Source: Actinomycetota bacterium (GTDB lineage: Bacteria > Actinomycetota > Actinomycetes > Nanopelagicales > Nanopelagicaceae). Taken from it: DNA of 64,000 nt. The notes beneath the pieces are model-generated. The model saw only the letters and a list, made by a program, of their open reading frames with translations, did not search any database and was not told where the DNA came from. Positions 45,062-58,916 of this stretch are shown in pieces. The translations under genes and the position numbers were made by a program. Location of the stretch: contig WLHB01000002.1 in assembly GCA_009702965.1 (NCBI GenBank), forward strand, positions 25,757-89,756, written 5' to 3'. Every line of letters begins with the position of its first letter. The first letter of the stretch is position 1.

Positions 45062-45733
45062 TTATATGCTCAGTTTTTCGTAGGCACTACGGGCGGCAGC
45101 CTGTTCAGCTTCTCGCTTGCTCTTTCCCTCGCCTTGAGCGATCTCTTCTCCCCCAACGATTGCTCTGGCGGTGAAGGATTTATCGTGATCTGGCCCGCTC
45201 TCAATGACGGCGTATTCAAGTGTGCCTTTACCAAGGGATGCGACAAGTTCTTGTAACGCCGTTTTGCCATCAAGGCCGGCACCCTTTGCCATCGCTTCTT
45301 CTAAAGTCTGCTTAATTAATCCCTGCACCACAGTCGCCGTGGTCGCAAAACCAGCGTCGAGATAGATGGCGCCAATGAGAGCTTCTAGGGCATCTGCCAA
45401 AAGTGAGTTCTTGTCGCGACCGTTGGTGACTTCTTCGCCCTTACCAAGACGAATGTACTTTCCTAGTTCAAGTGAGCGAGCGATATCTGCAAGTGCGCGC
45501 ATATTGACAATCCCTGAGCGCAAAGGAGAGAGACGACTCTCATCCAAATCGGGATAGCGAAGATAGAGCTCTTCAGTAACTATCAATCCAAGAATTGAAT
45601 CGCCAAGAAACTCCAGGCGCTCGTTGGTAAGAGTTGAACCGTTTTCATATGCAAAAGATCGATGGGTAAGAGCTAACTCAAGGAGTTGCGGATCAATCTC
45701 AACTCCCAGAGCTTTCTTAAGTTCAGGGAACAG
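45062..45733 (-). CDS. rnc: Ribonuclease III; probable non-canonical CTG start at 45733 (track start 45586 lacks the catalytic motif)
   Basis: Translation upstream of the track start gives FPELKKALGVEIDPQLLELALTHRSFAYENGSTLTNERLEFLGDSILGLIVTEEL, including the RNase III signature; no ATG/GTG/TTG available in frame after the TAG just upstream. Confidence 0.85.
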   Translation of the reverse strand: MFPELKKALGVEIDPQLLELALTHRSFAYENGSTLTNERLEFLGDSILGLIVTEELYLRYPDLDESRLSPLRSGIVNMRALADIARSLELGKYIRLGKGEEVTNGRDKNSLLADALEALIGAIYLDAGFATTATVVQGLIKQTLEEAMAKGAGLDGKTALQELVASLGKGTLEYAVIESGPDHDKSFTARAIVGGEEIAQGEGKSKREAEQAAARSAYEKLSI

Positions 45734-45746
45734 AAGAAACCTGCGA

Positions 45747-45920
45747 TCAGATATCTAGAACTTGGCGACGGTTATATGTTCCACAGGTTGGGCAAGCAAT
45801 GTGTTGCAGCTTTGGCTGTTGGCACTGTGAGCAAGGTGCAAGTGATGCGGCAGTTGTTTTCCACATGCTTCGACGTGAACGTGTCTTTGAACGAGACATC
45901 TTTCGCTTTGGTACTGGCAT
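45747..45920 (-). CDS. rpmF: 50S ribosomal protein L32 (missed by the ORF track)
   Basis: MPVPKRKMSRSKTRSRRSMWKTTAASLAPCSQCQQPKLQHIACPTCGTYNRRQVLDI*; zinc-ribbon cysteines. Confidence 0.96.
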   Translation of the reverse strand: MPVPKRKMSRSKTRSRRSMWKTTAASLAPCSQCQQPKLQHIACPTCGTYNRRQVLDI

Positions 45921-58398: not shown

Positions 58399-58916
58399 CG
58401 ATCACTCAACTCTAATTCGCGAAGAACGCGGCCGATGATTGAAAAGCTAAATCCTTTACGTTGTAAGAGCGATTGAATCCTGCGAATCTGAACTTCAGGA
58501 GCAAGCCGTGACATGGTGTTGTACTTTTTAAATCCAAGATCAAAGGCTGCGCGATACTCTGATTCATCATCGATCTGATCAAGGGCCTCATCAATCTCTT
58601 CTTGAGTGACACCCTTCTGACGAAGTTCGGTTGCAATAATTCGTTTCGAGATCTTCTTATGGCCATGGCGCGAAGTTGCCCAGGCGATTGCGAATTCGCC
58701 ATCGTTGATTAGCCCAGCTTCGGTCAGGCGAAAAATCACCGCTGCAGCAACATCATCTTCAATCCCCCGATTTTTCAAGTGAGCGAGAAGCTCGCCCTTA
58801 CTTTTCGCCCGCGCCACAAGAGCATTAAGTGCAATTGTGTGAGCTACTTCGTAAGGGTCGAGCCCCTCACCACCTGATTTCGATTCTCGTGGAACCTTTG
58901 CGTAGTGGAGAGAAAT
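58395..58916 (-). CDS. recX: Recombination regulator RecX; probable ATT start at 58916 overlapping the recA stop (TAATT)
   Basis: Conserved RecX N-terminus DPYEVAHTIALNALVARAKSKGELLAHLKNRGI lies partly upstream of the first canonical start (GTG 58817); frame opens after TGA just upstream of ATT. Confidence 0.82.
   Translation of the reverse strand: MSLHYAKVPRESKSGGEGLDPYEVAHTIALNALVARAKSKGELLAHLKNRGIEDDVAAAVIFRLTEAGLINDGEFAIAWATSRHGHKKISKRIIATELRQKGVTQEEIDEALDQIDDESEYRAAFDLGFKKYNTMSRLAPEVQIRRIQSLLQRKGFSFSIIGRVLRELELSDR

Follow-up and report, generated by a model that had tools for sequence, protein, structure and literature searches.

The gene for RNase III (rnc) in the DNA analysed here, a 64,000-nucleotide stretch of a Nanopelagicaceae contig that we call the window, almost certainly begins with a CUG codon, judging from its conservation among relatives, and initiation there very likely depends on a Shine-Dalgarno (SD) sequence. 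The same reading extends to most of the family. Comparison among its members indicates the position of the start, to constraint on the codon itself, to its link with the SD and to a single origin of the arrangement. The gene lies on the minus strand in the order DUF177-like ORF, rpmF, rnc, smc, and the features of the locus are collected in Table 1. When the rnc frame of the window sequence was read from the TAG at 45757-45755 down to the TTG at 45586, no ATG, GTG or TTG was found. Opening the gene at this TTG, as a mechanical ORF list does, yields a product of 174 aa and removes 49 residues relative to the CTG product, with NERLEFLGDS among them. The first-pass annotation had described this truncation, as well as a frame that stays open without a canonical start up to a TAG overlapping the rpmF 3' end, and had proposed instead the CTG at 45733-45731, located 13 nt past the TGA of rpmF with GCAGG 6 nt upstream; each of these observations was confirmed in the sequence.

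Table 1. Features of the rnc start region, in window coordinates.
Feature	Coordinates	Strand	Evidence
rnc (RNase III), CTG-started, 223 aa + stop	45062..45733	-	Pfam, M. tuberculosis RNase III match
CTG initiation codon (inferred)	45731..45733	-	CTG at homologous codon in 96/114 family loci
Putative Shine-Dalgarno GCAGG, 6-nt spacer to CTG	45740..45744	-	sequence, alignment, 16S 3' end
12-nt insertion CGCAGGTTTCTT, supplies new SD	45734..45745	-	only in window and L003; absent from 13 other aligned rows
GATATC, decayed counterpart of relatives' SD GAGGTC	45750..45755	-	alignment
In-frame TAG, upstream bound of rnc frame, within rpmF 3' end	45755..45757	-	sequence
rpmF (ribosomal protein L32), 5' neighbour, TGA 45747-45749	45747..45920	-	Pfam Ribosomal_L32p 6.4e-23
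RNase III signature NERLEFLGDS, dropped with TTG start	45596..45625	-	sequence, 2A11 alignment
Internal TTG at which the mechanical ORF list opens the gene; rejected as start	45584..45586	-	ORF list; truncated PF14622

The product read from the CTG was analysed with Pfam, which returned Ribonucleas_3_3 (PF14622) at 7.7e-39 and PF00636, both over the cut-off, and a dsRNA-binding domain (dsrm, PF00035) at residues 157-221 (E 4.8e-17). The PF14622 match starts from position 1 with the CTG product, but spans only 36-124 of 128 with the product from TTG 45586. RNase III of M. tuberculosis (2A11) matched the CTG product with an E value of 7.4e-64 in an alignment that covers NERLEFLGD and begins with residue 5 of the CTG product opposite residue 10 of the 2A11 chain, a pairing that indicates a normal length for the CTG product. 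The usual actinobacterial RNase III length that had been ascribed to it earlier was thus borne out, at 223 aa. As judged from its domains (RIIID followed by dsRBD), the product is a bacterial RNase III of class I, and an RNase III domain complete with the catalytic acidic residues is obtained only from a start upstream of TTG 45586.

We read the rnc start region in 114 loci belonging to 17 genera within the family, a MAG-rich and non-random set whose rows were picked by similarity and genus. The window comes from a Candidatus Planktophila genome, a freshwater bacterium, whose closest named relative is Candidatus Planktophila sp. CPBay_Spr15L08_21, with an RNase III identity of 95%. The homologous codon, taken as the one 23 codons before the conserved HRS motif without gaps, was CTG in 93 of the 114 loci, and three more carried a CTG displaced by small indels, for a total of 96. 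AGG precedes the CTG in all 96, at a spacing of 6 nt in 91 and 7 nt in 5, an alignment of relatives that upholds the start proposed in the first-pass annotation. The commonest arrangement is GAGGTCTGATCTG, with the TGA of rpmF placed after the SD and before the CTG. Many genomes have an in-frame TAG or TAA shortly upstream of the rnc start, so that in these the start must fall between this stop and the catalytic region. No other near-cognate codon was conserved at the rnc start site in the family loci read.

The distribution of canonical codons was analysed in a crown set of 107 rows, with the early-branching genera g6, g9, g10, g13 and g15 left out. Each of the 12 crown genes that lack the CTG has an in-frame ATG, GTG or TTG at -33 to -9, while 58 of the 95 CTG-bearing crown genes have none in this interval (Fisher p 4e-5, with relatedness ignored) and 22 of the 95 have no canonical start anywhere before HRS. 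Among crown genes the CTG thus appears to have disappeared only from those with a canonical start to replace it. A subclade that includes L139, L143, L148, L151 and L152 carries, in addition to the CTG, an ATG, GTG or TTG 3 codons downstream that could be an alternative start in these genomes; elsewhere a TTG occurs at codon -27, or a TTG or GTG at -7, relative to HRS. More generally, the extra canonical codon found 3 downstream or 4 upstream of the CTG in some subclades could provide a second start. Retention of the codon, the placement of the SD and the lack of a canonical start upstream of essential sequence together argue for a conserved non-canonical start.

The lineage of the window provides a view of which parts of this region are constrained. 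Alignment with 13 relatives revealed that the window and L003 have 12 inserted nt separating the stop of rpmF from the CTG. This lineage reads GATATC in place of the ancestral SD GAGGTC, and the inserted nucleotides supply another AGG, with the 6-nt spacing to the same CTG preserved. What is conserved, as far as the alignment indicates, is the spacing and the codon, and not the surrounding block. That the block was rebuilt with AGG-N6-CTG kept argues against a motif unrelated to initiation, and the swapping of an SD around an unchanged CTG amounts to a clean natural experiment on start-site constraint.

The evolution of the codon was followed on a tree of RNase III that excludes the start region and in which many forks are weakly supported. 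CTG is kept in 95 of the 107 crown rows, and makes up 9.7% of the leucine codons in these rnc genes. By parsimony the start-codon column underwent 7 changes, as compared with 23-52 at 16 conserved internal leucine columns in the same crown rows and tree. For this comparison we relied on unrestricted rows, as the version limited to CTG-bearing rows is circular; in the same unrestricted test some non-leucine columns were as invariant as the start column (5-7 changes). Across the family loci, CTT, CTC, CTA and TTA never replace the start CTG. The replacements found at the column were TTG (2), ATG (1), GTG (1), GTT (5, one event), CAA, GAT and TCG. In L027, L141, L144, L147 and L178 the SD GAGG was altered as well, and in L047, L050, L055, L142 and L146 the CTG was destroyed by a small indel and an ATG is present three codons further on. 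This pattern is consistent with one gain of CTG after the early genera branched off and six subsequent losses. We also looked for relatives with ATG at this position together with a local sequence error in the window; some relatives do carry ATG, as derived or outgroup states, and no sequence error was found. With a clade-wide CTG, AGG 6-7 nt upstream, no synonymous drift and canonical starts where the CTG is lost, a CUG start at 45733 best explains the locus, as had been suggested at the outset.

Initiation at this codon would involve the ordinary fMet-tRNA, whose CAU anticodon would read CUG with a first-position mismatch. The AGG of the SD, 6-7 nt upstream, would guide initiation to the CUG, and the weak codon would probably also benefit from ribosomes that terminate on rpmF 1-13 nt before it. 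In E. coli, CUG gives about 0.86% of AUG expression, and it accounts for 0.024% of annotated bacterial starts (PMC11497404). The inefficient CUG may thereby keep RNase III scarce or make its level depend on conditions. Since one substitution (C to T or A) would give a canonical start, the likeliest reason for the long retention of CUG is that higher RNase III is unwelcome. The idea that its inefficiency is what preserves the codon, by limiting RNase III dosage, has in our judgement about an even chance of being correct. Slightly more tentative is the broader proposal that a selected CUG holds RNase III low and sensitive to initiation factors throughout the family, so that CUG would do across a clade what AUU does for infC and pcnB.

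Nearly as likely as a role in dosage is that CUG is indeed the start but is just sufficient, its low efficiency serving no purpose. It would have arisen by a chance change, the SD and coupling to rpmF would suffice for expression, and it would have been kept as RNase III is needed. This account, which falls somewhat short of probable, is favored by the conservation of the SD and of the stop-start closeness to rpmF together with the CTG, and by the six independent losses to canonical starts, which show that such starts are tolerated. However, a single substitution would turn the CTG into TTG or ATG and raise output, and the great majority of crown rows still keep CTG. Its persistence despite these one-step canonical options suggests that the codon is actively retained or that stronger starts do harm.

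It is improbable that rnc starts elsewhere, whether at TTG 45586, at a downstream near-cognate codon such as ATT or inside rpmF, and that the CTG belongs to some other motif, for which the high conservation of the GAGGTCTGATCTG block around the rpmF stop could be cited. A start at TTG 45586 would drop the catalytic signature, one inside rpmF is ruled out in many genomes by the nearby in-frame TAG or TAA, the site holds no other conserved near-cognate codon, and the window lineage retained AGG-N6-CTG through the rebuilding of the block. The rnc frame is out of frame with rpmF and begins a few nt from its stop, an arrangement that would also accommodate a programmed frameshift producing an L32-RNase III fusion; this was rejected as very improbable since the offset of the CTG varies by genus (offset 1 in TGA-TCTG, offset 2 in TAA-CCCTG), the rpmF stop varies between TGA and TAA, and there is no common slippery site. 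An assembly or base-calling error masking a normal ATG might be suspected in the window genome (G000), a fragmented MAG of 60 contigs and 76% completeness, but its probability is negligible because about 95 other genomes share the CTG, among them single-contig assemblies with 99% completeness, and the arrangement is shared by independent 95%-identical assemblies (L003, L032/L056).

Several features of the translation machinery were inspected in addition to the locus itself. In 36 of 41 genomes the anticodon stem-loop of the initiator tRNA had the standard sequence GGGCTCATAACCC. The pattern GGGCTCAKAACCC matched only with CAT in these 36, with no CAG-anticodon initiator tRNA among them, and an altered initiator tRNA that reads CUG as cognate was rejected on this basis. 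Each of the four relatives with this region in its stretch has the 16S 3' end GGATCACCTCCTTTCT, with the anti-SD CCTCC, and a divergent anti-SD was likewise rejected. RNA structure hiding the rnc start was rejected as well, as the local fold was unremarkable (z -0.32).

Other non-canonical starts were sought in the window and its relatives. For 58 window genes the comparison drew on as many as ten complete relatives, and all but rnc (CTG) and recX (ATT) had a conserved canonical codon at their beginning. A strict test, in which no canonical start may lie between the upstream stop and the conserved region and which was combined with reading by eye, returned the same two genes over a further ~400 kb of relatives' stretches and the window region (387 ORFs, some noise). 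An earlier automatic "best canonical column" filter had produced numerous spurious hits in unalignable leaders, rRNA and antisense ORFs. The strict test misses infC on account of spurious upstream canonical codons, so the survey cannot be taken as exhaustive. In 30 of 30 family loci read (L196-L225), infC starts with ATC after a GGAG-type SD, and canonical-start ORF calling would misplace its start in the family. The wider search for such genes that the first-pass annotation had envisaged, carried out here on stretches of relatives, yielded recX, with its similar ATT, and no further gene; the ATC of infC came from reading its loci directly. In the window, recX (58914-58916, minus strand) has an ATT start that overlaps the recA stop (AGAGG-N10-ATT, TAATT). 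The earlier suggestion that recX has a non-canonical start thus holds for the window and for several genera with ATT or ATC at the same place, but not throughout, as G148 has ATG and other arrangements occur elsewhere.

A close parallel is infC, which starts with AUU, AUC or AUA in many bacteria and, like rnc here, is an RNA/translation gene with a good SD and conservation over a large clade; its codons mismatch at the third position, whereas CUG mismatches at the first. Expression of infC is autoregulated by IF3, and the AUU start of the E. coli gene limits its output. The likeness of rnc to infC concerns the non-canonical start and the SD. An AUU start also limits poly(A) polymerase, the product of pcnB of E. 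coli, according to Binns and Masters 2002 as cited in PMC13009471. Like the proposal for rnc, this concerns an RNA-metabolism enzyme limited by an inefficient start, but the gene and codon are different, and the limitation is experimental for pcnB and inferred for rnc. Fixed non-canonical starts are found in core genes of Listeria (rnhC ATC, infC ATT; PMC13068326) and of staphylococci (AUU in cvfC1 and AUA in ccpN, with a strong conserved SD; PMC13009471), as for rnc here, but none of these is a CUG or involves rnc.

A search of a bounded literature collection found no CUG/CTG start for rnc or RNase III and no report on start codons in Planktophila. Within the literature searched, an rnc with a CUG start throughout a clade seems to be without precedent, while the kind of phenomenon is already known. 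A CUG start retained in most of a family by a core RNA-processing enzyme is unusual because CUG is rare and in E. coli yields <1% of what AUG does (PMC11497404). The family would offer a long-maintained natural test of why a weak start might be selected. Gene finders restricted to ATG, GTG and TTG would truncate RNase III in many of these genomes, with loss of the active site, and a selected CUG would mean that rnc is systematically mis-annotated in a freshwater actinobacterial family.

Outside the family, the rnc genes of other Actinomycetota (Kribbella, Cellulomonas, Streptomyces and others) encode RNase III of similar length, and in Kribbella an rpmF-like frame lies directly upstream of rnc, as in the window. 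Unlike the window family, most of those examined have a suitably placed ATG or GTG (or TTG). An order-level search for relatives returned loci of the same family only. In an Acidimicrobiaceae MAG (L102, NZNH01000038.1), rnc opens with TGA CCC CTG TTC and lacks a canonical start ahead of codon -11, which may represent a CTG start that arose independently in a different class. The rnc frame of a Microbacteriaceae MAG (L106, M67) is open for 209 codons and has no ATG, GTG or TTG in the 60 codons before HRS. In L167 (G170, genus g2) a deletion joins rpmF in frame to rnc, with GTG at the position of the CTG; the fusion may be genuine or may stem from faulty assembly. Finally, a record titled Bifidobacterium breve (L058, CAMDHH010000018.1) contains a Planktophila-type rnc, 77% identical to that of the window and with AGG-N6-CTG, and looks mislabelled.
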